This document shows, piece after piece, positions 30,794 through 53,267 of a stretch of DNA of 53,267 bases. This DNA comes from Lysobacteraceae bacterium (GTDB lineage Bacteria; Pseudomonadota; Gammaproteobacteria; Xanthomonadales; Rhodanobacteraceae). A model generated the notes under the pieces. It did not search any database. It was given only the letters and a program-made list of their open reading frames with translations, and had not been told where the DNA came from. The position numbers were made by a program, and so were the translations under genes. The stretch covers positions 1 to 53,267 of the forward strand of contig JAGWPB010000010.1 of assembly GCA_028870665.1 (NCBI GenBank), written 5' to 3'. Within the stretch, counting starts at the first letter, position 1; every line of letters starts with the position of its first letter.

Positions 30794-30918
30794 TGCTCGC
30801 GCCATGCGAGCCGGGGGACGTGACGCCATGCAGTGCCGGCCGGAGAGGCCGCTTGCGGCGCGAGCGTTGAAGCGGCCCGCCACAAGCGGGCATGACACAG
30901 CAACAGGGGACTCATGTG

Positions 30919-33732: not shown

Positions 33733-33762
33733 CGTCACGCCAGGCGCAAACGATGCAACCAG

Positions 33763-33789
33763 GGGCCGTCCGCAAGGACGGCCCTTTTT
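33763..33789 (+). terminator. Rho-independent terminator after TonB-dependent receptor 1
   Basis: Nine-base perfect stem GGGCCGTCC/GGACGGCCC with a GCAA tetraloop, followed by TTTTT. Confidence 0.93.
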
Positions 33790-33910
33790 CTTGGGCAGCG
33801 GCCAGGCACGCCGGCATCCGGGTTGCCACGTCGCATCGCGGAGCCCCGCAGGCCGGGGTTGCCGGGCGCACCGGATCGATCCGGGCCGTTACGGCGGGAT
33901 GCGTTGCGGT

Positions 33911-33925
33911 TAGGAAAAATTCCTA
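33911..33925. promoter_or_regulatory. Operator-like palindrome upstream of receptor 2
   Basis: TAGGAA-AAA-TTCCTA, perfect six-base arms in a GC-poor patch, about 60 bases before the -35 hexamer. It could bind a dimeric activator. Confidence 0.4.
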
Positions 33926-33984
33926 GCCAATTCCGCGAACTTCATCACGTTTCTTACGGAACGGATACATCGCATGACCGCGCC

Positions 33985-34013
33985 TTGACCGGCCGGTTAA
34001 GCAATCGTTACGT
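33985..34013 (+). promoter_or_regulatory. Promoter-like element of TonB-dependent receptor 2
   Basis: TTGACC (33985-33990), 17 bases, TTACGT (34008-34013). It matches the block upstream of receptor 1 at both hexamers and their immediate flanks (CCTTGACCG, CGTTACG) with the same spacing. Confidence 0.6.
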
Positions 34014-34195
34014 TCAGTGTCAAGCAATCCTGCGGTCGCCAGCGTCTCCGGAAAAGCGCGATCGGATCGCGTGCGCTGATCGGGCAGCGGCGCGCGATGG
34101 TGCTGCCGCGCAGCGGCCCGCAGCAGACCGTGAGGCATCGCATTACGCCGTCCAGCGGATGGCCTGTCAGCGTCACCACCAAGGGGCTCCACATC

Positions 34196-37197: not shown

Positions 37198-39279
37198 ATG
37201 AAGCTGCGTTCGGTCTCTTTCATTGCCTCGGGGCTGCTTGCCTGCGGTGCGCTGGCCCATGCCGCGCCACCGCGACTGCCCACCGCCGACTTCGCGCGCG
37301 CGCCGGACCTGCGCCAGGCCACGCTCGCGCCCGATGGCAAGCATCTGGCCCTCGTGCTGGCAGAACATCAGACCGCCGGCGCCGATGCCACCGAGCAGCT
37401 GGTGGTTTTCGATTTGCCGACGCTGCAGGTCGCGTCACGGCTGAACTTCGCGCTGGATCGGCTGCCGGGCCAGATCACCTGGGTCAGCGATACCCGGCTG
37501 GTCGTGGCCGAGGCGCGCCAGACCGGCACCCTGGATCAGCCGTCGCTGGACGGCAACATCATCGCCCTGGATTACGACGGCAGGCACCAGCGCACGCTCT
37601 ACAGCCTGGTCGGTCGCGGCAACCTGGGCAGCTCGTTCAACATGATGTCGATGGAGCAGGGCTATCCGAACCTCGATGGACCCACGCTGGCGATGGATGG
37701 CCACGTGTTCATCTCGATCACGCCGTTCCCGCACAACGAGGGCACCCGCAACCAGGAGGCCCGGCGCACGCTGCTCTACGACGTCAACACCCTGGACGGC
37801 TACCCGAAGCAGGTCGCCGAGATCCATCGCGGCGGCATGCAGTTTCTGGTCGATCGCGATGTCGCGCTGTATGCCTACGGCAGCAACGACAAGCTGGAGC
37901 CTGTCGTCTATTCGCGCGCCGATGGGCACTCGCAGTGGCAGCGCATGCCGGCTGCGGAGACCGGCAAGGTGTTCATCCCCGGGCAGGTCACGGCGGACGG
38001 CAAGCATGTCGATGCGCTCTACAGCGCCGCGGGCGGACCGTTGCAGCTGATCGAGGCCAACCTGGATGGCAGCGGTCGGCATGTTCTGGCCAGCGACCCG
38101 TTCGGCTCGGTCGATACCGGCAGCGAGCTGGGCGCGATGAATGACGGCTACGGCCCGATCCTGCGCTCCTGGTCCACGCCGCGCAGCCACACGCCGTTTG
38201 CGGTGACTTTTTCCGGCGTCTATGCCAATGGCAAGCCGGCGATCACCTACCTGCAGGATGATCGCTACGCGCAGATCCTGAAAGCGCTGAACACGCAGTT
38301 CGGCGATCACCTGGTCACCTTCGCGGGCATCAGCCGCGACGGTTCGACCATTCTCGTGCATGCGATCAGCGGTCAGGATCCGGGCGAATACGCGCTGCTG
38401 GACACGGCGTCCATGCAGATGAAGCCGCTGTTCCAGTCGGAGCCGTGGATCAAGCCGGACCAGATCGGGCCGCGCATGGCGTTCCAGTTCCACAATCGCA
38501 GCGGTACGCTGCTGGACGGCTACCTGACTCTGCCGGCGGGCGTGCCGTCCAGGGATCTGCCGACGGTGGTGATGGTCCATGGCGGCCCGATCGGCATCCG
38601 CGACCAGTGGGATTACGACCCGTTGCAGATCGCGCCGTTTCTCGCCAATCGCGGCTACGCCGTGCTCAACGTCAACTACCGCGGCTCCAGCGGGCGCGGT
38701 CTGGGCTTCGAGGATTCGGGCTATCGCCAGTTCGGCACCGGCATCCAGAACGACATCATCGACGCGGTGCACTGGGCGATCCGCAAGGGGTACGTCGATC
38801 CGCAGCGCATCTGCGTCTTCGGCGGCAGCTTCGGCGGCTACTCGGCGCTGATGCAGCCGATCCTGGCGCCGGACCTGTACAAGTGCGCGATCGACTATGC
38901 CGGCGTGTCCGACTACACCATCGAGTTCGATCGCAGCGACACCTCGCATTCCAAGCTCGGCAACAACTATTTCGCCATGGCCGTGGGCACGCGCGCCGAT
39001 GGCAAGGCGATCTCGCCGCTGTCCATGCTCGGCCGCTTCAACGTGCCGGTGCTGATCGCCCAGGGCGGTTCCGACCCGCGGGTCCCGCCGCAGAACGCCG
39101 AACGCCTGCGCGATGCGCTGGAAGCCGCGCACAAGCCCTATCAGTGGCTGTATTTCCCCAAGGAGCCGCACGGCTTCACCACCGAGCCGCACCGGCTGGC
39201 GCTGCTGCAGAAGATGGAGGCGTTTCTGACCGAGTATCTGGGGCCGGGCGTCACCGCGACAGGCACCAGCCGGCCCTGA
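37198..39279 (+). CDS. Secreted S9 family peptidase 1 (prolyl-oligopeptidase-like)
   Basis: 693 aa. A signal peptide (MKLRSVSFIASGLLACGALA, cleavage near AHA-AP) sends it to the periplasm. A degenerate beta-propeller-like region (about 30-410) gates the C-terminal alpha/beta hydrolase domain (about 430-690): HGGPIGIRDQWDYDP, nucleophile GGSFGGY (Ser544), Asp626 in AQGGSDPRVP and His658 in KEPHGFTTEPHR. S9 enzymes cleave short peptides, often after proline; the lasso-peptide isopeptidases of proteobacteria belong to the same clan and also sit beside TonB receptors. It is paralogous to the peptidase at 41.1 kb. Confidence 0.93.
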   Translation: MKLRSVSFIASGLLACGALAHAAPPRLPTADFARAPDLRQATLAPDGKHLALVLAEHQTAGADATEQLVVFDLPTLQVASRLNFALDRLPGQITWVSDTRLVVAEARQTGTLDQPSLDGNIIALDYDGRHQRTLYSLVGRGNLGSSFNMMSMEQGYPNLDGPTLAMDGHVFISITPFPHNEGTRNQEARRTLLYDVNTLDGYPKQVAEIHRGGMQFLVDRDVALYAYGSNDKLEPVVYSRADGHSQWQRMPAAETGKVFIPGQVTADGKHVDALYSAAGGPLQLIEANLDGSGRHVLASDPFGSVDTGSELGAMNDGYGPILRSWSTPRSHTPFAVTFSGVYANGKPAITYLQDDRYAQILKALNTQFGDHLVTFAGISRDGSTILVHAISGQDPGEYALLDTASMQMKPLFQSEPWIKPDQIGPRMAFQFHNRSGTLLDGYLTLPAGVPSRDLPTVVMVHGGPIGIRDQWDYDPLQIAPFLANRGYAVLNVNYRGSSGRGLGFEDSGYRQFGTGIQNDIIDAVHWAIRKGYVDPQRICVFGGSFGGYSALMQPILAPDLYKCAIDYAGVSDYTIEFDRSDTSHSKLGNNYFAMAVGTRADGKAISPLSMLGRFNVPVLIAQGGSDPRVPPQNAERLRDALEAAHKPYQWLYFPKEPHGFTTEPHRLALLQKMEAFLTEYLGPGVTATGTSRP

Positions 39280-39352: not shown

Positions 39353-40912
39353 TCAGCCTTCGCCCAGCGCCTGCGCCAGCGGAGCGAGCTGGGCCTGGTA
39401 GCGCCGCCATTCGGAGAGCGCGCGCCGATGGATCGGCTCGCGCACCTGCGCGCTGCTCAGGGTCGAGACCGGGTTCGAATTGCCGGCGGGATCGATGCAG
39501 CGTGCGTCGTAGGGCAGCCCGCAGTGCGCCAGTACCCGGCGCAGGACCGCTTCGGAATCATCGACCAGTGCCTCGTAGGAGACGTCGAGGATCACGCCCG
39601 GCATCAGCCGTTGCCACTGGCCCATGCAGGCCTGATAGTCGCGGTAGTGCGCGGCGAGCTCATCCAGGCGATAGCTGTAGGTGTGCGAGGCACCGAACAT
39701 CGCCTTGTAGTTGGAGTAGCACACCTCCATCGCCGAGCGTCGCATGTGCAGGATGACCGCATGCGGCAGTGCCTTGCGGATGAAACCCGCCAGCATCCAG
39801 TTGGCCGGCAGCTTGTCGATGTAGTGGCTGCGGCCCTGCGCGTGCCACTGGGTCTGCTCGAGGTAGCGTCGGGCCAACAGCGCATAGTCGGCGTCTGCCG
39901 CACGATCGAGCAGGGTGTCATCGAGTACGCCCGAGCCGTGGGTGTCCGCAACGTAGCGCAACTGTCGCGGGAAGTCGGGCAGCTCGCCCGGCGACGCCAC
40001 CTGCGGATGATTGCCCAGCAGGCGTTCGAGCAGGGTGGTGCCCGAGCGCGGCATGCCGAGGATGAAGATCGGTACCGGTCCGTCCTGTGGCGCGGCGGTT
40101 TCGCGCAGAAAGGCAGCGCTGCAGATCACGCGCACCCGCTCGAAGTGGCGCGACTCCGTGGCGCCGTCGTGGCCGACACGGGCGCGCATCAGGTCGTTGC
40201 CGCGTACCAGCGCCGACCACGCTTCGTCGCTGCGCCCCAGATCGTCCAGCGCCTTGAAGCGGGCGAACTCGAAGGCGTCGCCGTCCTCGTTGTCCGTGGA
40301 GGCGGACGCCGCATGCGCGGCGATATGGCGCAGAAGCGTTTCGTCACGCTGGCGATGCAGTCGCGCCAGGGTGAGCGCTGCGCGTCCGAAACCCGGGCGC
40401 ATGGCGAGCGCGGCGCGAAGCTCCGACTCGGTCTCGGCGAGCCGGCCGAGAAACTGCAGCTGCAGCGCGCGAAAGTAGTGGAACTCGGGTTCATCGAGGC
40501 CCAGCGCGCGCGCGCGATCCATCAGGGCGAGTCCCTCGTCATGCTGGCCGATCAGCTGGTGCACGTGCGCCAGCTTGGCCAGTGCCGGCGCGTCGCGCGA
40601 AACGGCGATGCCGGGATGGCGCAGACAGTCGCGGGTGGCCACCGTTTCGCCGATGCGGAACAGGCAATGGGCGACGGTGCAGATGGTTTCGGCGTCGGCG
40701 GGAAGATGGCGTGTGGCGGCCAGTGCCTGGGCCGCCGCCTCGCGCAACTTGCCCTGGGCCAGCAGCACGCTGCTGAGCAGCATGCGGCCCTGGACGTTGG
40801 CGGGCTGCTCGGCGACCAGCGCCTCCAGCGCGATGCGCGCGGCGGGCAGGCGCTCATCGGCGATGTAGCGTTCGATGCGTGCCCAGCGGTGGTCGGCGAC
40901 GGCCATGGTCAT
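39353..40912 (-). CDS. TPR-containing sulfotransferase family protein
   Basis: 519 aa. Residues 1-260 are TPR-like helices (for example LARLHRQRDETLLRHI). The C-terminal sulfotransferase domain has the PAPS 5'-phosphate loop FILGMPRSGTTLLERLL (PRSGTT at 288-293), GNHPQVASPGE with a candidate catalytic Glu310, the segment YIDKLPANWMLAGF, an ILHMRRSAMEVCYSNYKAMF 3'-phosphate-binding stretch and the typical end STLSSAQVREPIHRR. This layout is shared with tyrosylprotein-sulfotransferase-like proteins. No signal peptide is visible, so it acts in the cytoplasm, where PAPS is. It lies between two S9 peptidase genes and is divergent from the second, hinting at a peptide or peptide-derived substrate. 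An ATG six bases in is an alternative start. Confidence 0.9.
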   Translation of the reverse strand: MTMAVADHRWARIERYIADERLPAARIALEALVAEQPANVQGRMLLSSVLLAQGKLREAAAQALAATRHLPADAETICTVAHCLFRIGETVATRDCLRHPGIAVSRDAPALAKLAHVHQLIGQHDEGLALMDRARALGLDEPEFHYFRALQLQFLGRLAETESELRAALAMRPGFGRAALTLARLHRQRDETLLRHIAAHAASASTDNEDGDAFEFARFKALDDLGRSDEAWSALVRGNDLMRARVGHDGATESRHFERVRVICSAAFLRETAAPQDGPVPIFILGMPRSGTTLLERLLGNHPQVASPGELPDFPRQLRYVADTHGSGVLDDTLLDRAADADYALLARRYLEQTQWHAQGRSHYIDKLPANWMLAGFIRKALPHAVILHMRRSAMEVCYSNYKAMFGASHTYSYRLDELAAHYRDYQACMGQWQRLMPGVILDVSYEALVDDSEAVLRRVLAHCGLPYDARCIDPAGNSNPVSTLSSAQVREPIHRRALSEWRRYQAQLAPLAQALGEG

Positions 40913-43294: not shown

Positions 43295-44296
43295 TCAGGG
43301 TGCGCCGGTCAGGAATCGCGTCAGCGCGTCGGCCGTGGCGCGCGGTTCTTCCATGATCGGCATGTGGCCGCAGCCATTGAGCAGGCTGGTGCCGATCTGC
43401 GGTGCCGCGACCAGGCCCTTGCGCAGCGCGTCCAGCGCGGAGGGATCGATCACGCGATCGTCGTTGCACCACAGGCCCAGCACCGGCATGGTCAGCCGCG
43501 GCAGCACCGGTACCAGCGCATCGGCGTCGGCCGGTGCGCGCAGTCGTGCCAGGGTGGCATCGAGGAAGGGTTGCGCGGCGACATTGCGCGCGATCAGCAC
43601 GTCGGCGATGCGCGCGGGCACAAACGGCGGCCTGGCGAAGATCAGCCGCATGAAGCGCGCGAACTGCGCGCGGTCGCTGTAGGCGAAGGGGTTGTGGCCT
43701 TCGGCCACGGCGCGCGCGAAGGCGTTGGGCCGGAACGGCAGGCCGGCCGTATCGAGCAGCGCCAGCGCTGCCACGCGATCGGGGTGCTCGGCGGCATAGA
43801 CGCCGGCGATGGCGCCGCCCATCGAGTGTCCGGCCAGCGCGAAGTGCTGCAGCTTCAGCGCATCGACGAAACCCGCCAGCCGCCGCGCCTGGGCATGCAC
43901 GCCGGCATCGGCGCCGGGGATCGGCGAGGAGGCGCCGTAGCCGGGCAGGTCGGGGATCAGCAGATGAAAATTGCGCACGAGATAACGCGCGGTCGGCAGC
44001 CAGTTTTCGCGCGAGCCGCCGAAGCCGTGCAGCAGCACCAGCGTCGGGCCCTTGCCGCCCTCGTAGTACACCCAGTGCGTCGCGCCCACCTGCAGCGTGC
44101 GGGTGTGCAGGTCGGCCTGCCAGGACTGCAGCGCGTAGTCGCCGCGCAGCAGCAGCCCGGGAGCGAGCAGATACGCGCTGCCGGCGCCCAGCGCGATCAC
44201 CAGCAGCAGCACGCCGAGGGCTTTCAGCCGGCGCAGCAGCAGCGTGCGCAGCGTGGAGCGCGGCGACTGGGCACGCGCATCAGGGTCGGCCCTCAC
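43295..44296 (-). CDS. Membrane-anchored alpha/beta hydrolase
   Basis: 333 aa from a GTG whose GTGA overlaps the ubiE stop, implying translational coupling; the frame continues upstream only as a shadow of ubiE. An N-terminal membrane helix (about 20-42, LGVLLLVIALGAGSAYLLA) precedes the hydrolase fold: LLHGFGGSRENW, LAGHSMGGAIAGVYA (nucleophile Ser), an Asp in CNDDRVIDP and a His in GCGHMPIMEEP. Resembles lipase/esterase or ring-cleavage product hydrolase types. Coupling to ubiE may only reflect co-transcription; a role in quinone metabolism is not shown by the sequence. Confidence 0.88.
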   Translation of the reverse strand: MRADPDARAQSPRSTLRTLLLRRLKALGVLLLVIALGAGSAYLLAPGLLLRGDYALQSWQADLHTRTLQVGATHWVYYEGGKGPTLVLLHGFGGSRENWLPTARYLVRNFHLLIPDLPGYGASSPIPGADAGVHAQARRLAGFVDALKLQHFALAGHSMGGAIAGVYAAEHPDRVAALALLDTAGLPFRPNAFARAVAEGHNPFAYSDRAQFARFMRLIFARPPFVPARIADVLIARNVAAQPFLDATLARLRAPADADALVPVLPRLTMPVLGLWCNDDRVIDPSALDALRKGLVAAPQIGTSLLNGCGHMPIMEEPRATADALTRFLTGAP

Positions 44297-45039
44297 AGCC
44301 GGTAACCGCGGTGGATGGCGACGATCCCGGCACTGAGATTGCGCACCTCGACGTGGGCCAGGCCCGCGCTTTCCATCATGGCCTTGAGCGTGGCCTGATC
44401 GGGGTGTTTGCGGATCGACTCGGCCAGGTAGCGGTAGCTGTCGGCGTCGCCGGCGATCAGCTGCCCCAGCCGCGGCAGCACGCGGAACGAATGCAGGTCG
44501 TACAGCGGCGCCAGGGCGGGCGCGGTGAGGCGCGAGAATTCCAGCACCAGAGCGCGGCCGCCGGTCTTGAGCACGCGCCGCATCTCGGCCAGCGCGCGCT
44601 CCTTGTCGGTGACGTTGCGCAGGCCGAAGGCGATGGTCACGGCGTCGAAACTCTGATCCGCAAACGGCAGCGCCTCGGCGTCGAGCTGCGCCCAGTCCAG
44701 TCCGCGCACCAGGCCGCGGTCGGTCAGGCGGTCGCGACCGACGCCGAGCATCGCCGCGTTGATGTCGCCGACGACCACGCTGCCGCCGGCGCCGACGCGC
44801 GGCAGCAGCAGCGCGGCGATGTCGCCGGTGCCGCCGGCCAGATCCAGCACACGGTCGCCAGCGCGCACGCCGCTGCCGGCGACGAAGTGGCGCTTCCAGA
44901 GGCGGTGCATGCCGAACGACATCAGGTCGTTCATCAGGTCGTAGCGGGCGGCGACCGACGTGAACACCGCGCCGACCAGTTTCCGCTTCTCGGTCACCGG
45001 GACTTCGCGGTAGCCGAAGTGGGTGGTGGATTCGTTCAT
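44293..45039 (-). CDS. ubiE: Bifunctional demethylmenaquinone / 2-polyprenyl-benzoquinol methyltransferase
   Basis: 248 aa. SAM-dependent C-methyltransferase of ubiquinone and menaquinone synthesis. It starts MNESTTHFGYREVPVTEK, with KRKLVGAVFTSVAARYDLMN and NDLMSFGMHRLWKR, SAM motif I VLDLAGGTGDIA, and the diagnostic AFGLRNVTDKERALAEMRRV plus SYRYLAESIRKHPDQATL blocks. Quinones made through this step would also be the electron acceptors for the sulfur operon divergently encoded next to it. Confidence 0.97.
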   Translation of the reverse strand: MNESTTHFGYREVPVTEKRKLVGAVFTSVAARYDLMNDLMSFGMHRLWKRHFVAGSGVRAGDRVLDLAGGTGDIAALLLPRVGAGGSVVVGDINAAMLGVGRDRLTDRGLVRGLDWAQLDAEALPFADQSFDAVTIAFGLRNVTDKERALAEMRRVLKTGGRALVLEFSRLTAPALAPLYDLHSFRVLPRLGQLIAGDADSYRYLAESIRKHPDQATLKAMMESAGLAHVEVRNLSAGIVAIHRGYRL

Positions 45040-45267: not shown

Positions 45268-45822
45268 ATGAACATGCGTTCCGTCGTGCTTTCGCTGGCT
45301 GCCGCCGTGGCGTTTTCCTCGACCGCCTTCGCCGCGCAGCCCCCGGGCTTCTGGACGATGCCCGCGATCAAGGATTTCGGCCCGGTGCATGTCTGGCCCG
45401 AGGCGGTCGACCGCCCCAGCGCCCACGCCACCTACAAGTCGCTGTTCGATGTGACCCAGGGCAATCCGGCGGCCGACAAGGTCAATCCCGGTCTCGATCA
45501 CATCGCGCGCGCGGTCAACACCTTCGCTGCCGCCGGCGTGCCGCTGAGCCATCTGAAATTCGACGTGATCATCCACGGCGGCGTCACGCCGATCGCGCTG
45601 GGCGAGAAGGCCTACATGGCCAAGTACGGTCACGCCAATCCGAACCTGGCGGTGATCGCGGCGCTGAAGAAGGCCGGCGTCAACGTGATGGTGTGCGGCA
45701 ACGCGCTGGGCGACATGGAGTTCACCCCGGCCGAGGTCAATCCCGACGTCAAGGTGGCGCTGTCGGCATTGTCGACGCTGATCATCCAGCAGGACCAGGG
45801 TTACGCGCTGATCCGCATGTGA
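45268..45822 (+). CDS. Exported DsrE-family protein
   Basis: 184 aa with a signal peptide (MNMRSVVLSLAAAVAFSSTA, cleavage near FAA-QP) after a GGAGGA ribosome-binding site. The DsrE/DsrF-like fold is suggested by LKFDVIIHGGVTPIA and GVNVMVCGNALGDM, the latter with the single mature cysteine (Cys143) where sulfur-carrying members bear theirs. DsrE-type proteins pass sulfane sulfur in sulfur oxidation; this one would act in the periplasm. It opens a six-gene operon whose other products oxidise or bind sulfur oxyanions. A weak -10-like TAGATT lies at 45221-45226. It could instead be an unrelated DsrE-fold protein. Confidence 0.82.
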   Translation: MNMRSVVLSLAAAVAFSSTAFAAQPPGFWTMPAIKDFGPVHVWPEAVDRPSAHATYKSLFDVTQGNPAADKVNPGLDHIARAVNTFAAAGVPLSHLKFDVIIHGGVTPIALGEKAYMAKYGHANPNLAVIAALKKAGVNVMVCGNALGDMEFTPAEVNPDVKVALSALSTLIIQQDQGYALIRM

Positions 45823-45904
45823 TCCGGTGCGCCGCCGCCGCGCGGTTGCGCCGTCGTGGCGCGGCCGCGCGGTCTTGCTTGCATTCGATCGTCGAGGAGT
45901 GGTC

Positions 45905-46918
45905 ATGAGACTGCATCGCAAACCCTGGTTGCCGGCCGTGCTGTGCGTGCTCGGCGCGTCCGGCTTCGCCGCTGCCCAGGCCGCCGACACCGGCAAGCCG
46001 GTGACAGCGCCCCGCTACAACGAAACCCTGTATCCGCCGTGGTCGCACGGCGCGAACAACCCGGCCCTGCACAAGGGGCTGGAGTTCACCATCCCCGAAG
46101 TCGATTCGATGCCCGATTTCCACGGCAGCATCAACGACCCGCAGCTGGTGATCTACGTCGGCGGCAACTACTACTTCGCGATGGCGCCGCTGGTGCAGGC
46201 CTTCGAAGCCGAGCATCCCGCGCTGCGCGGCCGGATCTTCTACGTCACCATCCCGCCCGGACTGCTGATCAAGGCGATGGAGCAGGGCAACACCTTCACC
46301 TCCGGCAACATGACCTTCACCGTCGCGCCGGATATCTATGCCGCGGGCCTGAAGAAGGTGAAAGAGCAGATCGCGGCCGGCAAGCTGGTGGCGCCGGCGG
46401 TGCCCTATGTCACCAACGACCTGACCATCATGGTGCCCAGGGGCAACCCCGCCGGCATCAAGACGCTCAACGACCTTGGCAGACCCGGTGTGCGCCTGGT
46501 GATGCCGAACCCGGCATGGGAAGGCGTGTCGCGGCAGATCGAGGCCAGCCTGCGCAAGGCGGGCGGCCCGGCGCTGGAGCAGACGGTGTACGCCACCAAG
46601 GTCAAGGACGGCCAGACCGTGCTGACCCACATCCATCACCGGCAGACGCCGCTGTTCCTGATGCAGGGGCTCGGCGATGCCGGCATCACCTGGAAGTCGG
46701 AGGCGATCTTCCAGGAGCAGGCCGGGCATCCGATCAGCCACGTCGACATTCCCGCGCAGTACAACACCACGGCGATCTATGGCGCGGCCATGGTCAAGGG
46801 CGCGGCGCACCCCGCGGCGGCCAGGGCGTGGCTGGAGTTCCTGCGTTCGCCGGCGGCGCTGAAGATCTTCGAGCGCTACGGTTTCAAGGCGGCGCCCGCC
46901 TCCGCGACCCGGGAGTAA
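45905..46918 (+). CDS. Periplasmic substrate-binding protein 1 (molybdate/sulfate-like)
   Basis: 337 aa, ATG preceded by GAGGAG; signal peptide cleaved near AQA-AD. The body follows the type II binding-protein fold: LVIYVGGNYYFAMAPLVQAF, an inter-lobe VTNDLTIMVPRGNPAGIKTL, GVRLVMPNPAWEG, and the C-terminal AAARAWLEFLRSPAALKIFE typical of ModA/sulfate-binding relatives. Ligand residues cannot be assigned. It is followed three bases later by a second binding protein, but no permease or ABC ATPase is in the window, so it may deliver an oxyanion to a periplasmic enzyme or sensor rather than a transporter. Sulfate/thiosulfate/molybdate-binding-type genes are also known beside doxDA in Acidithiobacillus. 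Confidence 0.82.
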   Translation: MRLHRKPWLPAVLCVLGASGFAAAQAADTGKPVTAPRYNETLYPPWSHGANNPALHKGLEFTIPEVDSMPDFHGSINDPQLVIYVGGNYYFAMAPLVQAFEAEHPALRGRIFYVTIPPGLLIKAMEQGNTFTSGNMTFTVAPDIYAAGLKKVKEQIAAGKLVAPAVPYVTNDLTIMVPRGNPAGIKTLNDLGRPGVRLVMPNPAWEGVSRQIEASLRKAGGPALEQTVYATKVKDGQTVLTHIHHRQTPLFLMQGLGDAGITWKSEAIFQEQAGHPISHVDIPAQYNTTAIYGAAMVKGAAHPAAARAWLEFLRSPAALKIFERYGFKAAPASATRE

Positions 46919-46921
46919 GCG

Positions 46922-47701
46922 ATGAGGGTGTGGCCGCTGGGCGTCCCGGTGTTGCTGGCGTGCGCGCTGGCACTGCCGTGTGCCGCCGCGGCCGGCGTGG
47001 TGCGGGTGTTCGGCCCCGGCGGGCCGGCGCCGGCGATGAAAGCCGCGGCCGTGGCGTTCGAAAAGCTGCACCCGGGTGTCAGCGTCCAGGTCACGGCCGG
47101 GCCGACGCCGCGATGGATCGCCGCCGCGCGCGCCGAGGGCGATGTGATCTACAGCGGATCGGAAGCGATGATGGCCGAGTTCGAGCACGATCTCGCCGGC
47201 GTGCTCGACCCGACCACGATCGAGCCGCTGTATCTGCGCCCCGCGGTGATCCTGGTGCGGCCGGGCAACCCCGATCAGATCACCGGTGTTGATGACCTGC
47301 TCAAGCCGGGAGTCAGGGTGATGGTGGTCAACGGCGCCGGCCAGGTCGGACTGTGGGAGGACATCGTCGGTCGCGACGGCGATATCGCCACGGTGCGCGA
47401 TTTCCGCCGCAACATCGTCTACGCCGCGCCGAACAGCGCGCTGGCGCTGAAGCGCTGGCGGGACGATCCGTCAGTCCAGGCCTGGCTGATCTACAACATC
47501 TGGGCGATCGCCCATCCGGGCGTGGCCGACATCGTGCCGCTGGAACCGCGCTATCGCCTGTATCGCGACTGCGGCGCGGGCCTCACCGCGCGCGGCCGGG
47601 CGAGTGCCGAGGCGCGCGCGTTCGTCGCGTTCCTGCGCGATGCGCGAGGGCAGGCGATCTTCGCGCACTGGGGCTGGCAGCAGCAGTTCCGTGCGCCGTG
47701 A
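46922..47701 (+). CDS. Periplasmic substrate-binding protein 2 (ModA-like)
   Basis: 259 aa with a signal peptide (MRVWPLGVPVLLACALALPC, cleavage near AAA-GV). The mature part begins VVRVFGPGGPAPAMKAAAVA, the standard first strand and helix of ModA-type proteins, with ITGVDDLLKPGVRVMVVNGA in the middle and FVAFLRDARGQAIFAHWGW at the end. It lies between binding protein 1 and a cytochrome, with gaps of 3 and 14 bases. Not a duplicate of its neighbour at the sequence level, so the two may bind different oxyanions. No transporter partner is present. Confidence 0.8.
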   Translation: MRVWPLGVPVLLACALALPCAAAAGVVRVFGPGGPAPAMKAAAVAFEKLHPGVSVQVTAGPTPRWIAAARAEGDVIYSGSEAMMAEFEHDLAGVLDPTTIEPLYLRPAVILVRPGNPDQITGVDDLLKPGVRVMVVNGAGQVGLWEDIVGRDGDIATVRDFRRNIVYAAPNSALALKRWRDDPSVQAWLIYNIWAIAHPGVADIVPLEPRYRLYRDCGAGLTARGRASAEARAFVAFLRDARGQAIFAHWGWQQQFRAP

Positions 47702-47715
47702 GGCACGCAGATGCC

Positions 47716-48381
47716 ATGCGGACCGTGCGGCGGCGCGCCCTGGGTGCCGCGTTCGTGTTCGTCACCGGGCCGGCGCTGCAGGCACAAGGCGTCGATGCCG
47801 TGCAGATCGTGATGCACGGCAATGGCCGCGGCGCGCACGCCTGCGCCGCCTGTCATGGCAACCACGCCGAGGGCAACCGGCTCGCCGGCATTCCGCATCT
47901 GGCGGGGCTGCCCGATGCCTATCTGACCCGCCAGTTGACGCATTTCCGGGCCGAGGCCCGCGACAACCCCAGCATGCAGGTGATCGCGCACACCCTGACG
48001 CCGGCCGAGATCGTCGCGCTGGCCCGCTATTTCGCCGCGCTGGCGCCGCCGCCGCCCGCGTCCGTGACCGCGCCGCCGCCGGCGCTCGGCATCGCGCTGG
48101 CGGTGCAGGGCCGCGGTGCCGTGCCCGCCTGCGCCGCCTGCCACGGTCCCGGCGGCGTCGGTCTGGGCGACGAATTCCCGCCGCTCGCGGGCCAGTCCGC
48201 GCTGTATATCCGGCGGCAGCTCGAGGCCTGGCAACAGGGCCGGCGCCCCCCCGGCCCGCTGGGCCTGATGGGCGCGATCGCCAGGCGGCTGACGGCGGCC
48301 GAGATCGCGGCGGTCGCCGCGTACTATGAGCAGCAGCCTGCCATCCCCGTGGCGGCCGCAAGCAGCAAGGACGTGCCGTGA
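47716..48381 (+). CDS. Diheme c-type cytochrome
   Basis: 221 aa with an Arg-rich signal peptide (MRTVRRRALGAAFVFVTGPA). Two heme sites, both CAACH (43-47 and 139-143), sit in two similar cytochrome c domains (CAACHGNHAEGN and CAACHGPGGVG), each followed by PHLAGLPDAYLTRQL or PPLAGQSALYIRRQL. This is the cytochrome c4/c-553 type pattern. A GTG at 47698 overlapping the previous stop is an alternative start. It probably accepts electrons from the TsdA-like protein and passes them to a terminal oxidase. Confidence 0.9.
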   Translation: MRTVRRRALGAAFVFVTGPALQAQGVDAVQIVMHGNGRGAHACAACHGNHAEGNRLAGIPHLAGLPDAYLTRQLTHFRAEARDNPSMQVIAHTLTPAEIVALARYFAALAPPPPASVTAPPPALGIALAVQGRGAVPACAACHGPGGVGLGDEFPPLAGQSALYIRRQLEAWQQGRRPPGPLGLMGAIARRLTAAEIAAVAAYYEQQPAIPVAAASSKDVP

Positions 48382-49427
48382 ACGCGCGCAGTGCCTGCCG
48401 GGGCCGACTCGCCCTGCTGGCAGCGGCGGTCGGTCTGGCCGGATGCACGCAACACGGCGCATCGCCGCCACCCGCCGCCACGGCGCGCGTGCTGCCGGCC
48501 GCGCCGGCCGCGGTGGCATTCACGCCCCCGCCGCGCCGCGCCATCCCGGACGATGCATTCGGCGCCGTCGTGCGCCAGGGCGAAGCGCTGTTCACCCGCA
48601 CCGGCCAGGCGGCGCCGCAATTCGTCGGCAATGCGCTGACCTGCCAGAACTGCCATCTCGATGCCGGACGTCTGGCCGACAGCGCGCCGCTGTGGGCCGC
48701 ATGGGTGGGTTATCCCGTCTATCGCAGCAAGACCGGGCACGTCAACACGTTCGCCGAGCGCCTGCAAGGCTGCTTCCGCTTCAGCATGAACGGCAAGGCG
48801 CCGCCGCTGGGGGACCCGGTGCTGGTCGCGTTGGAATCCTACAGTTACTGGATGGCGACCGGCGCACCGACCCATGTCACGCTGGCCGGCGCCGGCTACC
48901 CGATCCTGCCGCAGCCGGAGCAGACGCCGGACCGTGTCCGAGGCAAAGCCGTCTATACCGCCAAATGCTCGATCTGCCACGGCGCCGAGGGTCGCGGCCG
49001 CGAAGCCTGGGGCAGGCTGGCGTTCCCGCCGCTGTGGGGGCCGGACTCGTTCAACTGGGGCGCGGGCATGGGCAACGTCAACCTCGCCGCCGGCTTCATC
49101 AAGGCCAACATGCCGCTGGGCAACGGCTGGAGCCTGAGCGACCAGGAGGCTTGGGACGTGGCGCTGTACGTGGATAGCCAGGAGCGACCGCAGGATCCGC
49201 GCTATACCGGTGACGTCGCCGAGACCCGCGCGCGTTTTCACGATACCCCGATGTCGATGTACGGACGTGTCGTTGACGGCCATGTCCTCGGCAGCGTCGC
49301 GCCGCAAGCAGGCGCTCGCCCGCGCCCGCCGTCGGCGGATCGGCCCGCGGCGGCGGCATTCGTGCGCCGCCGCGGGCGCGCTGCACCAGCAACCCCTCAA
49401 CCCCGGACCACCAAGGAGCAACCATGA
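48378..49427 (+). CDS. TsdA-like diheme cytochrome c lipoprotein (thiosulfate dehydrogenase family)
   Basis: 349 aa from a GTG overlapping the previous stop. A lipobox LAGC (Cys23) makes it an outer- or inner-membrane lipoprotein. Heme 1 is CQNCH (89-93) in NALTCQNCHLDAG, heme 2 is CSICH (197-201). Between them HVNTFAERLQGCFRFSMNGK closely follows TsdA, the enzyme that joins two thiosulfates into tetrathionate; Cys132 is conserved-looking there. The last 45 residues after YGRVVDGHVLGS are Pro/Arg/Ala-rich and read through a 13-base perfect hairpin (49343-49377), so the ancestral stop may have been lost. Stop overlaps the doxDA start. Confidence 0.85.
   Translation: MNARSACRGRLALLAAAVGLAGCTQHGASPPPAATARVLPAAPAAVAFTPPPRRAIPDDAFGAVVRQGEALFTRTGQAAPQFVGNALTCQNCHLDAGRLADSAPLWAAWVGYPVYRSKTGHVNTFAERLQGCFRFSMNGKAPPLGDPVLVALESYSYWMATGAPTHVTLAGAGYPILPQPEQTPDRVRGKAVYTAKCSICHGAEGRGREAWGRLAFPPLWGPDSFNWGAGMGNVNLAAGFIKANMPLGNGWSLSDQEAWDVALYVDSQERPQDPRYTGDVAETRARFHDTPMSMYGRVVDGHVLGSVAPQAGARPRPPSADRPAAAAFVRRRGRAAPATPQPRTTKEQP
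49343..49377 (+). repeat. Perfect 13-base hairpin inside the 3' end of the TsdA-like gene
   Basis: GCCCGCGGCGGCG and CGCCGCCGCGGGC flank a 9-base loop, about 35 bases before the doxDA ribosome-binding site. It could pause ribosomes or protect the upstream mRNA, changing the ratio of the two products. Confidence 0.8.
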
Positions 49428-50494
49428 ACACGCAGCGATCGATCGAAGCCGGCGGCAGCGCCACCGCGGATGGCTGGCGGCTTGCCGCCGTGGCCCTGCT
49501 GGCGGTGCGCTTCGTGCAGGGCTGGATCTTCTGGGGCGGCGGCAGTCGGCGTTTCATCTACGCGCCGAGCAAGCTCGACCCGCACGCGTCGAGCTGGATG
49601 GCCAACAAGTTCCAGTCGGCGATGCCCGGCGCGCTGCTCGGCATGGATCATGTCGTCGATTACATGCTGCACCACTTCACCCTGCTGTATGCCGGCGTGA
49701 TCGTGTTCAGCGCCGCCGAGCTGATCTTCGGCCTGTTCCTGATCTTCGGCTTCATGACCCGACTGTCGGCGCTGGTCACGATCGGGATCAGCGTCGTGCT
49801 GATGCTGCTGTTCGGCTGGCAGGGTGCGACCTGCATCGATGAATGGACCATGGCCGCGAGCAACTTCGCCATGGGTGTGACCCTGTTCGTGGCCGGCTCG
49901 GCAGCCTGGTCCGTCGACAGCTGGATGCTGCGGCGCAATCCCGCGCTGGCCGGTCGCGGCTGGTTCCAGTGGTTCGGCAGCGGCACCTGGAGCGCGCAGC
50001 GGGTCAATCGCCTGGGCCTGATCGGCGCCATCGTCACCGTGCTGTTCGTGGTGCTGACCTACAACGACTTCCGCGGCTCGGTGATCACGCCCTTCCACGG
50101 CGGCCCGGTCAGTCCGGCCAAGCATCACATCAGCCTGTCGGCGGGCAGCGTCGGCGCCGACGGTTCGGTGCGCTTCACCGCGTATCTGGATGCCGGCACG
50201 CCGGCCGAGCCGGCCAACATCATCCGCGCCGAGCTGATCGGCGCGCAGGGTCAGGTGATCGAGGCGTGGGACGGCGCCACACTGGCGGCGCTGCCGAAGA
50301 CCGCCTTCGCCAACGACTACGACTACAACAAGTTCGCTCCGGGCTACGCCGGCATCACCGCCAAGATGGGCGCGCGCGCGGCCATCAGCCTGCCGCCGGC
50401 ACAGCCGGGCCTGAGCCTGGCCAACGGCACTTATGCCGTGGTCCTGCACAGCGTCAACGGCCACAGCTATACCTTGCAGGTGAAGCGTCCTTGA
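49424..50494 (+). CDS. doxDA: DoxD-DoxA fusion (thiosulfate:quinone oxidoreductase)
   Basis: 356 aa, AAGGAG ribosome-binding site and an ATGA overlap with the TsdA-like gene. The N-terminal DoxD/DoxX-like part (about 1-185) has four or so membrane helices (FVQGWIFWGGGSRRFIYAPS, LLYAGVIVFSAAELIFGLFL and others). After another helix (about 200-215) the DoxA-like periplasmic domain follows (about 220-356: NDFRGSVITPFHGGPVSP and an Ig-like strand-rich body ending SVNGHSYTLQVKRP). DoxDA oxidises thiosulfate to tetrathionate and reduces quinone; the fused form is known from Acidithiobacillus. With the TsdA-like protein the operon would hold two thiosulfate-oxidising routes. Confidence 0.88.
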   Translation: MNTQRSIEAGGSATADGWRLAAVALLAVRFVQGWIFWGGGSRRFIYAPSKLDPHASSWMANKFQSAMPGALLGMDHVVDYMLHHFTLLYAGVIVFSAAELIFGLFLIFGFMTRLSALVTIGISVVLMLLFGWQGATCIDEWTMAASNFAMGVTLFVAGSAAWSVDSWMLRRNPALAGRGWFQWFGSGTWSAQRVNRLGLIGAIVTVLFVVLTYNDFRGSVITPFHGGPVSPAKHHISLSAGSVGADGSVRFTAYLDAGTPAEPANIIRAELIGAQGQVIEAWDGATLAALPKTAFANDYDYNKFAPGYAGITAKMGARAAISLPPAQPGLSLANGTYAVVLHSVNGHSYTLQVKRP

Positions 50495-50617: not shown

Positions 50618-53152
50618 TCAGTCACCGCCGTCGGCGTGCCGCAGTTCCGGTTCGGCGCTGGCCGATTCGTTGCCCGGGGTGATCTTGAGGATCGCCTGGC
50701 GCACCGCGCGCGCGAGCACCACGCGCGCGTCGCGCACGATGTCGGCCAGCGCGGCGTCGAAATCGAGCTTGCCGTCGGCGCCCGGGCGCACCACGCCGCG
50801 CGCGCGCAGCAGCTGGATGAAGCCGCGGAACAGCGCCTTGTCGAAATATTCCGGTGCGCCCAGCTGCAGCAGCAGGGCCAGACGCTGGCCGGTCAGCACG
50901 CACTGGGTTTCCAGCTCCTGCGCGGTGAGCGTGCCGGGGCCGTTCTTGACCAGCGCGGCGAGCGCGATGTAGTAGCGCTCGAAGGCCTGCAGCAGGCTGT
51001 GCGCGATCACCCGCAGCTGATAGGCGCCGTCGCCCTGGCCGGGGCCGCGTTCGAGCACGCGGCCGTCGCCCTGCGCCTCAAGCAGGCCGCGGCGCAGGAA
51101 GAACCCGATCGTCGCCTGCAGGCGCTCGCCGAAGCCATCCTCGTCCCACGGCAGGAACAGTTCGCTGCGGATGAACGGGTACACCAGCCGGCCCAGGCGC
51201 AGCAGCGCGGCGCGCGTCATCCGCCGGTTGTTGAGAAAGCACGCCGCCACCCACGCCGCGCAGGCGTACAGGTGCAGCACGTTGTTGCGGAAATAACTGA
51301 GCAGGACGGCCTGGTCACCCTCGCACAGCAGCACGTCGCCCAGCGGATGGCGCACTCGCCGCACCCAGCCCATGCGCTCGCCGTAGGCGATGATCTCGGC
51401 CGGCGACGCCGGCGTGACGGTGACGCGCTCGGCGTAGGGCAGCTCCAGCAGCAGCGCCTTGCTCAGTTCGATCTGTGCCAGCAGGTCACTCTCGGCCATC
51501 GCGTGCTTGGGCGTGGCCAGCAGCGCCAGCGCCAGCAGGTTGATCGGATTGACGTCGGCGGCGCGGTTGATCTCGACATGCACGCGCTCGGCCAGCGTAT
51601 CGATCAGGCCCGGCAGCCAGGCGGGCTTTTCGTCCTCGGCGCCGCGCGCGGTGCGCCATTCCGGCGCAGTCTGGTCCAGCAGCGGTTCGAGCAGGATCGG
51701 CTCGCCGAAGTTGAGCGTGACGCGGCCGTATCGCTGGCGCAGCACCTTCAGCGCGCGCAGCACGCTCCACAACGATTCCTTTTCCTTGGGCTGCCCGCTG
51801 AGCTCGCCGATGTAGCTGTTGCCCTCCATCAGCTTCTCGTAGCCGATGTAGACCGGCTGGAACAGCACCGGCCGCCGCGGCGAGCGCAGGAAGGCGCGCA
51901 CCGTCATCGCCAGCATGCCGCTGCGCGGTGCCAGCAGGCGCCCGGTGCGCGAGCGTCCACCCTCGACGAAATACTCCAGCGCCACACCGCGCTGGAACAG
52001 CTGATCGACGTAGGCGGCGAACACCGTCGAGTAGAGCGCGTTGGCCTTGAAGCTGCGGCGCAGGAAGAATGCACCGCCGCGACGCAGGAAGGCGCCGACC
52101 AGCGGCAGGTTGAGATTGACCCCGGCGGCGATGTGCGGCGGCACCAGGCCGTTCTGGTACAGCTGGTAGCTCAACAGCAGATAGTCGGCGTGGCTGCGGT
52201 GGCAGGGCACATAGATCACCTCGTGGCCCGGCGCGGCCGCACGCAGCGATTCCAGATGATGCATGCCGATGCCGTCGAACAGCTTGTTCCAGAACCCCGA
52301 CAGCAGGAACGACGCCGAGCGCACCACCGGATGCGAGTAGTCGGCGGCGATCTCCATCGCGTAGCCATGCGCGCGGCGCCACGCCGCTGCGCGGCTGATG
52401 CTCTCGCGCAGCGCGGTCTGGGTGATCGCCTGGCGCACCGCTTCGGTATTGAGCACGGCGTCGACCACGGTGCGCCGGTGCGACAGGTCGGCGCCGATCA
52501 CCGCGGCACGGATGCGGCGGAAATGCGCGCGCAGCACGCGCGTCAGCTTGCGTGCCAGCCGCGGTGGCGCCTCGCCGGCCGCGCGCGACTCGGCCAGCAC
52601 CTGGCGCAGGCTGACCGGCGGCGAGAAGTGGACGATGGTGTCGCGGCCGTTGAGCAGCAGCGCCAGCAGGCGCCGGAAGCGCCCGACCATCACCCAGTTT
52701 TCCGAAAACAGCACGCGGAACCAGCCGGACTGGCGGTTGGGGGCGCGGCCGACGTAGATCGCCACCGGCACCACCTGGATGTCCTGCTGCGGCTGTGCCT
52801 CGAGTCCGCGCAGCAATGCCAGCAACGCTTCGCGCGCCGCGCGCCGGCGCAGGCGGCCGAAGACCAGACCGTCGCGGCGGTTGAGCGCGAACAGCGCGCG
52901 GCGCCGACGCAGGCCGGGCACGTTGATCGGCCGCAGCGGCGGCGGCAGTCCGGCTTCGCGGCAGGCGCGGTCGAGGATCAGCGCGTCCGACAGGCCGTGG
53001 CGCTCGATCACGTAGCACACCGGAGCGTCCGGTTGCAGCAGCTGCGCCGGTTCGGCCGGATCGCGCTTGATGCGCAGCCACGGTGTCAGCAGGCGGCCGA
53101 ACAGGGCCATCCACCAGGGGGCACCGGAATCGTACGGGCGGTCGTCGATCAT
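50618..53152 (-). CDS. plsB: Glycerol-3-phosphate 1-O-acyltransferase
   Basis: 844 aa from MIDDRPYDSGAPWWMALFG; a TTG 30 bases upstream is a less likely start. Membrane-bound enzyme for the first step of phospholipid synthesis, using acyl-ACP or acyl-CoA. The four acyltransferase blocks are present: VPCHRSHADYLLLS (HRSHAD 318-323), GAFFLRRSF, YFVEGGRSRTGR and QPVYIGYEKLMEG. Length and N- and C-terminal extensions are those of the large PlsB form. It is convergent with the sulfur operon, and a probable gene end lies just upstream. Confidence 0.96.
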   Translation of the reverse strand: MIDDRPYDSGAPWWMALFGRLLTPWLRIKRDPAEPAQLLQPDAPVCYVIERHGLSDALILDRACREAGLPPPLRPINVPGLRRRRALFALNRRDGLVFGRLRRRAAREALLALLRGLEAQPQQDIQVVPVAIYVGRAPNRQSGWFRVLFSENWVMVGRFRRLLALLLNGRDTIVHFSPPVSLRQVLAESRAAGEAPPRLARKLTRVLRAHFRRIRAAVIGADLSHRRTVVDAVLNTEAVRQAITQTALRESISRAAAWRRAHGYAMEIAADYSHPVVRSASFLLSGFWNKLFDGIGMHHLESLRAAAPGHEVIYVPCHRSHADYLLLSYQLYQNGLVPPHIAAGVNLNLPLVGAFLRRGGAFFLRRSFKANALYSTVFAAYVDQLFQRGVALEYFVEGGRSRTGRLLAPRSGMLAMTVRAFLRSPRRPVLFQPVYIGYEKLMEGNSYIGELSGQPKEKESLWSVLRALKVLRQRYGRVTLNFGEPILLEPLLDQTAPEWRTARGAEDEKPAWLPGLIDTLAERVHVEINRAADVNPINLLALALLATPKHAMAESDLLAQIELSKALLLELPYAERVTVTPASPAEIIAYGERMGWVRRVRHPLGDVLLCEGDQAVLLSYFRNNVLHLYACAAWVAACFLNNRRMTRAALLRLGRLVYPFIRSELFLPWDEDGFGERLQATIGFFLRRGLLEAQGDGRVLERGPGQGDGAYQLRVIAHSLLQAFERYYIALAALVKNGPGTLTAQELETQCVLTGQRLALLLQLGAPEYFDKALFRGFIQLLRARGVVRPGADGKLDFDAALADIVRDARVVLARAVRQAILKITPGNESASAEPELRHADGGD

Positions 53153-53178
53153 GGCCGGGCGCGTCGGGCGCGATCGGT

Positions 53179-53267
53179 TCAATGCGTCCGGCCCGCGGGC
53201 GCCGACCGCGCGGCCGAGGGCACGGCTGCCGGTGCGCGCGCGGTGGCGGCGGGCGCGGCGATGGCAG
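53179..53267 (-). CDS. Possible C-terminal end of an unidentified gene (window edge)
   Basis: On the minus strand a frame enters from the window edge and ends at a TGA 27 bases before the plsB ATG. The 28 visible residues ([20 protein letters not shown] and on to RTH) are Ala/Pro-rich, typical of low-complexity tails, and cannot be assigned. In such GC-rich DNA an open frame of this size is weak evidence. Confidence 0.3.
   Translation of the reverse strand, partial: AIAAPAATARAPAAVPSAARSAPAGRTH

Follow-up and report, generated by a model that had tools for sequence, protein, structure and literature searches.

What would two thiosulfate-oxidising units be doing beside an exported DsrE-like protein and two periplasmic binding proteins, with no transporter next to them? 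The question is raised by six genes at positions 45268-50494 of the window, by which we mean the whole stretch of DNA analysed here (53,267 nt from a Lysobacteraceae bacterium, assembly GCA_028870665.1, contig JAGWPB010000010.1). Together, these adjoining genes of an acid-mine type bacterium seem to encode a periplasmic unit for the oxidation of thiosulfate. In the reading that we favour, to which we give a probability of about 0.5, thiosulfate is oxidised to tetrathionate in the periplasm by a thiol core, made of the DsrE-like protein and the first solute-binding protein (SBP1), from which electrons leave by two exits, DoxDA and TsdBA. The most informative feature of the locus, which the first-pass annotation of this DNA missed, is that a DsrE-like gene stands where Acidithiobacillus-type loci have the gene for TSD, a thiosulfate dehydrogenase. 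The six genes reported by that annotation, with gaps of 82, 3, 14, -4 and -4 bases, are all present on the + strand:

45268..45822, + strand: P0001, exported DsrE-like protein of 184 amino acids (aa) with a single cysteine, Cys143 (Pfam DsrE, 1.8e-10)
45905..46918, + strand: P0002, SBP1, 337 aa, with a solute-binding-protein fold (SBP_bac_11 at 81-328, 1.5e-52)
46922..47701, + strand: P0003, SBP2, 259 aa, PEB3/AcfC-like (SBP_bac_11, 8.3e-46; 4jb7, 1.7e-42; 3fir, 2.6e-42)
47716..48381, + strand: P0004, TsdB-like diheme cytochrome c of 221 aa with two CAACH motifs (N-terminal part of 5lo9, 3.2e-36)
48378..49427, + strand: P0005, TsdA thiosulfate dehydrogenase, 349 aa, with the motifs CQNCH and CSICH (5lo9, 1.9e-87; 4wqc, 5.6e-57)
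49424..50494, + strand: P0006, DoxDA fusion of 356 aa with one cysteine, Cys137 (DoxD, 4.8e-31; DoxA, 2.4e-9)

The Pfam matches bear out the motif-based calls of an exported DsrE-like protein and of a DoxD-DoxA fusion, and the call of a diheme cytochrome c also holds, now refined to TsdB by the 5lo9 match. P0001, whose signal peptide was recognised by eye, is proposed from its sequence to be a thiosulfonate-forming thiol protein in the TSD slot.

The gene neighbourhoods of SBP1 carry the argument. GTDB species genomes were scanned with an SBP1 profile and two SBP1 peptide patterns, and 374 relatives were found; the best 80 of the 374 and the window form the 81 loci described here, so that the counts carry a selection bias. 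The relatives occur in Acidithiobacillus, Thiomonas, Acidocella, Acidiphilium, Acetobacter, Komagataeibacter, Sulfuriferula and many metagenome-assembled genomes (MAGs), and in named species such as Acidocella aquatica, Thiomonas delicata and Acidithiobacillus ferruginosus. SBP1 is thus found far outside the Xanthomonadales. Directly upstream of SBP1 lies a DsrE-like gene in 30/81 loci and TSD in 43/81, never both (0/81), and neither in 8/81. TSD is here a protein of ~280 aa with a twin-arginine translocation (Tat)-type signal, which passed the NCBIfam thiosulfate dehydrogenase model NF052225 in both cases tested (416.5 and 418.9 bits, cut-off 300). Its locus in A. ferruginosus has the gene order tsd-sbp-doxDA known from A. 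ferrooxidans, and we tied the family to AFE_0042 through NF052225 and this order. Among the eight loci with neither gene, L074 and L097 are close to the end of a contig, L102 and L115 encode another exported DsrE-like protein farther upstream, and L088, L089, L095 and L123 have other genes. Downstream of SBP1 we found DoxDA in 50/81 loci, TsdA in 13/81, both in 7/81 and neither in 25/81. The seven loci with both all belong to the window's genus, in agreement with the earlier remark that TsdBA and DoxDA in one operon are unusual.

Two further arrangements were seen upstream of SBP1-DoxDA. A third type of exported DsrE-like protein is encoded in A. ferrivorans and A. ferriphilus (L102:7558-8055 and L115:7569-8066), where its gene adjoins that of a second exported protein (with a weak DUF302 match in L102). 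In A. ferrianus (L089:6978-8714) the place is taken by a 579-aa Tat-type protein, which by eye we presume to resemble SoxB.

The upstream partner also follows the descent of SBP1. We built a maximum-likelihood SBP1 tree of 80 rows, in which identical rows were merged and which includes rows beyond the 81 loci. On the 72 rows that have an upstream label, the type of upstream gene switches 2 times, against a mean of 22.7 and a minimum of 18 in 200 shuffles. On the 64 labelled rows that remain when those with less than 1200 bases downstream are also left out, it again changes 2 times (shuffle minimum 16), while the presence of DoxDA changes 10 times (shuffle minimum 13) and that of TsdA 7 times (minimum 8). 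On the DoxDA side, a tree with the nine DoxDA rows of the genus (G010 left out) as one clade, a group that was chosen after the tree had been seen, was rejected (approximately unbiased test, p-AU 5.4e-5), which indicates that a conserved DsrE-SBP1 pair probably stayed in place while its oxidase was exchanged. We therefore read DsrE/TSD-SBP1 as the constant pair with an exchangeable oxidase, the oxidase being inherited more loosely.

If two protein families alternate in one slot, are they related? An hhalign comparison of TSD (42 sequences) with DsrE (59 sequences) gave a probability of 78.8 and a score of 41.8, and the controls (four unrelated families, one reversed and 20 column-shuffled TSD profiles) reached at most 3.3 and 23.0, respectively. 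When the two bridging proteins of the third type (L102, L115) were added, the probability rose to 87.5; these proteins match both the TSD and the DsrE profile weakly, as one of them does NF052225 (E 0.002). All DsrE (59/59) and TSD (42/42) sequences have the aligned cysteine, which is the sole cysteine of the matched region in 36/42 TSD and 13/19 SBP1-linked DsrE rows. In the fold search with a TSD model, 2pd2 ranked third (E 2.4) and the DsrE/DsrF-like 3mc3 sixth (E 3.3), neither significant; 2pd2 is also the best, weak match of the P0001 profile (E 0.046). P0001 itself exceeds the cut-off of Pfam PF02635 (41.4 vs 22.7 bits) and thus belongs to the DsrE family, and no Pfam model for TSD was found in the scans made. 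From these alignments, homology of TSD and DsrE is likely but not proven. A wider proposal is that TSD is a divergent DsrE-fold protein in one superfamily with the exported DsrE proteins, which would carry out cofactor-free, cysteine-based thiosulfate oxidation with SBP1 as obligatory second subunit and an attached quinone (DoxDA) or cytochrome (TsdBA) unit, the window having both. We put this forward tentatively, as something closer to a one-in-three conjecture than to a conclusion.

Several results weigh against the core that we propose. The presence of DoxDA and TsdA also tracks the SBP1 tree better than the shuffles do, and the upstream partner thus differs from them in degree only. The SBP1 sequences of the genus as one clade were likewise rejected, more weakly (p-AU 0.016), since L066, a MAG from outside the genus, falls among them. 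With 25/81 loci having neither DoxDA nor TsdA directly downstream of SBP1 (of the 25, 4 are truncated by contig ends, 3 carry TsdBA upstream and 2 carry it ~2.5 kb downstream), oxidase coupling is not universal. In a 398-genome phylum sample, strong TSD matches were found in 5 genomes, and 2/5 have no SBP1 nearby: SBP1 is adjacent in 3, elsewhere in the genome in 1 and absent in 1, the last having the most divergent TSD of the 5. DsrE-profile matches occur in 34 genomes of the same sample (own genome counted). Among the 12 non-window matches with longer flanks, SBP1 lies beside both that score highest (162 and 169 bits), and all 10 stretches around matches of ≤153 bits are without it; the exported DsrE family is wider than the DsrE-SBP1 module. 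As to the kinship of TSD and DsrE, a shallow-profile hhalign comparison gave a probability of 2.6, extra cysteines are present in 6/42 TSD and 6/19 SBP1-linked DsrE rows, and Pfam DsrE was matched by 0/36 TSD members. A TSD structure model from 15 rows reached a predicted local distance difference test (pLDDT) score of 39.9, and one from 36 trimmed rows (pLDDT 64.9) had no PDB fold match below E 1.7. NCBIfam gave no match for P0001 at E≤0.1, and we have therefore not filed this protein as a TSD.

SBP1 itself looks unlike a sulfate-binding protein. In the alignment to 1sbp, Ser130, Ala173 and Trp192, which we take to be sulfate-contact residues of that structure, correspond to Glu206, His244 and Trp263, so that only the tryptophan is kept (87/87 rows). 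E206, H244, H245, R246 and W263 are kept in all 87 of the 87 SBP1 rows, which include near-identical sequences; the constancy of His244-His245-Arg246 is partly selected because these residues lie inside one of the scan patterns, and E206 and W263 lie outside the patterns. Five loci that were found via other genes (L050, L182, L183, L185, L187) have the same glutamate and histidines. In addition, SBP1 is free of cysteines beyond its signal region, and a stretch of ~55 residues with conserved positions precedes the binding-protein domain, which starts at residue 81 in Pfam. Since the aligned sulfate-contact positions are replaced, plain sulfate capture by SBP1 is unlikely. An assignment of SBP1 to CysP/Sbp was rejected on the same replacements and on its best Sbp/CysP score in NCBIfam, 40.9 bits with a cut-off of 155.5.

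The second binding protein is of another kind. With a profile, SBP2 matched 4jb7 (5.5e-67) and 3fir (2.2e-65), a full-length match to solved PEB3/AcfC members, and it is therefore PEB3/AcfC-like and not of the ModA/sulfate type to which it had been assigned. Nor do the two binding proteins form a like pair, as had been supposed: SBP1 is widespread and travels with an upstream cysteine protein, whereas SBP2, among the SBP1 loci examined, is restricted to the window's genus, where it occurs with TsdBA. One SBP2 relative, at 39% identity, was found outside the genus (G064); the 18 kb around it contain none of the other operon genes. P0003 was also considered as TSD, both being ~25 kDa, and rejected, because the TSD of the Acidithiobacillus locus belongs to a different, Tat-type family and P0003 resembles PEB3.

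The search for a transporter of the binding proteins, whose absence from the locus had already been pointed out, was extended to the genome. Pfam found no ABC (ATP-binding cassette) permease among the operon proteins or adjoining them, and the 5 permease matches in the window's genome (91.5% complete) include no CysT/CysW-type permease; they comprise the sugar type, PstC/PstA, and a Mo/W type that has a binding protein to itself. Elsewhere in this genome (G000:C23:9748-10649) lie two weak Sulf_transp halves (PF04143, YeeE-like; 31.0 and 26.7 bits, cut-off 27), which may represent a sulfur-compound transporter.

The two electron exits are recognisable as known enzymes. P0004 has two stretches with cytochrome domains in Pfam, and P0005 a cytochrome c domain and a sub-threshold SoxA/TsdA domain match (23 of 27 bits). 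In PDB 5lo9, presumably the Marichromatium TsdBA fusion, the N-terminal part is matched by P0004 and the C-terminal part by P0005; on these matches we regard the two proteins as a TsdB-TsdA pair, whose genes overlap by 4 bases. The earlier TsdA-like call can be sharpened, P0005 being by sequence a true TsdA: it scored 296.7 bits with 5lo9 and 196.5 bits with 4wqc, and only 25.1 bits with 1h31, presumably a SoxA-type chain. SoxA was rejected as an identity for P0005 on that comparison and on the SoxA model TIGR04484 (51.9 of 110 bits); the NCBIfam matches of P0005 include no TsdA model. Its haem motifs are CQNCH at 89 and CSICH at 197, and alignment to 4wqc gives Cys132 and Met231 as the ligands of haem 1 and haem 2; motifs and ligands are invariant in 10/10 aligned sequences. 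The excerpt of PMC5146829 names a TsdBA fusion, describes these ligand roles of Cys and Met in TsdA and has the enzyme use a haem-ligating cysteine. A lipobox, LAGC, was spotted by eye, and P0005 is probably a lipoprotein. P0006 scored 90.8 bits with NCBIfam NF041179, the large subunit DoxD of thiosulfate:quinone oxidoreductase, below its cut-off of 300, and is therefore filed as DoxDA, a thiosulfate:quinone oxidoreductase, by predicted domain content alone. C137, D139, E140 and W141 of DoxDA are kept in 51/51 aligned sequences.

Is this arrangement peculiar to the window? DoxDA matches of any similarity were found in 16/119 related genomes and SBP2 matches in 14/119, own genome counted in both. 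All six genes lie in one run in 5/12 other genus genomes (G005, G008, G009, G011, G012), and this contiguous order indicates that the arrangement is not due to chance. G002 and G003 are without SBP2, G004 and G010 have DsrE-SBP1-DoxDA only, and G001 (81% complete) and G007 (72% complete) gave no match to DoxDA or SBP2. Apart from G010, genus members share 78-92% (DsrE) and 82-90% (SBP1) identity with the window, and a genome of the same family, G065, has TSD-SBP1-DoxDA. In G006 the operon genes are split over two contigs. There (L043:10572-10853 and L042) an SBP2 remnant of ~94 aa stands directly before DoxDA, as if the SBP2-TsdB-TsdA cassette had been deleted; the cassette is present on a second contig of this MAG. 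SBP2 is placed with TsdBA since it occurs with TsdBA in the genus, save for the remnant (G006/L065).

How might the six products work together? The sequences show the gene content, the exchange of partners, the close inheritance of SBP1 with its upstream gene, the looser one of the oxidase, the conserved cysteines and the altered ligand positions of SBP1. We infer a physical complex, the thiosulfonate chemistry, the electron route and the ligands as follows. The core would be the single-cysteine DsrE-like protein working with SBP1, a binding protein detached from ABC importers. SBP1 would help to bind thiosulfate, whose oxidative joining to Cys143 would give Cys-S-S-SO3-, and a second thiosulfate would displace the bound thiosulfonate to release tetrathionate. 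Electrons would pass to the quinone pool via DoxDA, or to c-type cytochromes via TsdA/TsdB, which would also oxidise thiosulfate alone through its haem-ligating cysteine. In other loci the SBP1 family is paired with the Acidithiobacillus-type TSD in place of the DsrE-like protein. In the window, one operon would then supply both quinone and cytochrome. SBP2 would have been added later and move together with TsdBA.

Another account, which the first-pass annotation proposed, is that TsdA/TsdB and DoxDA do all the catalysis and that the DsrE-like protein and SBP1 are accessory, serving capture of substrate at low concentration, protection or maturation. TsdA and DoxDA both appear intact by sequence, tetrathionate formation is known for each in other systems, and binding small ligands is the normal role of binding proteins. 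Against this stand 17 uncut loci in which DsrE/TSD-SBP1 has no adjacent downstream oxidase (3 with TsdBA just upstream, 2 with it ~2.5 kb downstream); moreover, on the SBP1 tree the upstream partner is tied more closely to SBP1 than the oxidase is, and TSD, the alternative occupant of the slot, is itself described as an enzyme in the excerpt of PMC6335251. We consider this account unlikely, at roughly the level of a serious minority view. The core might instead act after oxidation, the DsrE-like protein taking thiosulfonate from tetrathionate made by TsdA/DoxDA and handing it to other carriers while SBP1 binds tetrathionate. According to the excerpt of PMC4175335, the DsrE-family protein DsrE3A does form a Cys-S-thiosulfonate with tetrathionate and passes thiosulfate to TusA; the changed sulfate-contact positions of SBP1 would suit such a role, as would our failure to find SoxB in the window's genome. 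Yet the same-slot TSD was characterised as an oxidising enzyme (PMC6335251, excerpt), and Pfam reveals no TusA-like gene among the six, which makes this route improbable.

It seems least probable, to the point of being a long shot, that SBP1 and SBP2 are sensors or the parts of an importer that uses a distant permease. A Mo/W-type ABC permease with its ATPase is indeed present at G000:C67, but it adjoins its own WtpA-like binding protein, a CysT/CysW-type permease is absent from the 5 genome matches, and no signal-transduction domain was found by Pfam in the six operon proteins. The thiol core formed by the DsrE-like protein and SBP1 remains the reading that we prefer, in which the SBP1 family resembles an enzyme subunit and not a transporter part. 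The conserved module would propose SBP1 as the partner of TSD, with the electron acceptor given by whichever unit is encoded beside it, and would give TSD a probable fold family and a catalytic cysteine.

The locus stands apart from its neighbours in the window. A UbiE-like gene at 44293-45039 and a reading frame at 50618-53182 flank it, both on the - strand, which leaves the six genes as a + strand run on its own. The promoter and terminator scan revealed no sigma-70-like promoter, and co-transcription is inferred from the gene spacing. The scan of open reading frames kept five of the operon frames, which show a coding-like codon-position guanine-cytosine (GC) content; the TsdB frame was not kept. 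Further upstream, two consecutive TonB-dependent receptor genes lie in a GC-poorer part (30892-37069), followed by a prolyl-oligopeptidase-family gene (37198-39279); a sulfotransferase-family gene is present at 39353-40912 (PF13469, 3.9e-48).

How much of this is new can be judged against known systems. A literature search, mostly of titles and the beginnings of abstracts, found no report of the exchange of DsrE for TSD, of TsdBA for DoxDA, of their combination, or of SBP1 as the constant partner. The tsd-sbp-doxDA layout is already in print for Acidithiobacillus, where the first-pass annotation had placed similar binding-protein genes near doxDA: the excerpts of PMC6335251 and PMC2754497 describe a tsd-sbp-doxDA(-rhd) cluster in A. 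ferrooxidans (AFE_0042-0044) and report higher expression of its genes on sulfur. The window shares with that cluster the order of upstream protein, binding protein and DoxDA; it differs in that a DsrE-like protein replaces TSD and that SBP2 and TsdBA are inserted between SBP1 and DoxDA. The DsrE3A-TusA carriers of Metallosphaera (PMC4175335, excerpt) have in common with P0001 the DsrE family and a cysteine for thiosulfonate, whereas DsrE3A is cytoplasmic and works with TusA and the window protein is exported and paired with a binding protein. Like the DoxDA proteins of Acidithiobacillus and Acidianus, P0006 has DoxD and DoxA domains, joined in one protein as they are in Acidithiobacillus, and a conserved loop with Cys137; its operon partners differ, and it stays below the NF041179 cut-off. 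As in the Marichromatium TsdBA fusion and in separate TsdB/TsdA pairs, the window has both subunits, four haem motifs and the ligand Cys and Met. In contrast to the known TsdB-TsdA, this pair is embedded with DoxDA, a DsrE-like protein and two binding-protein genes. Likewise, SBP2 has its sequence relationship in common with the PEB3/AcfC binding proteins, but its context is that of thiosulfate oxidation.

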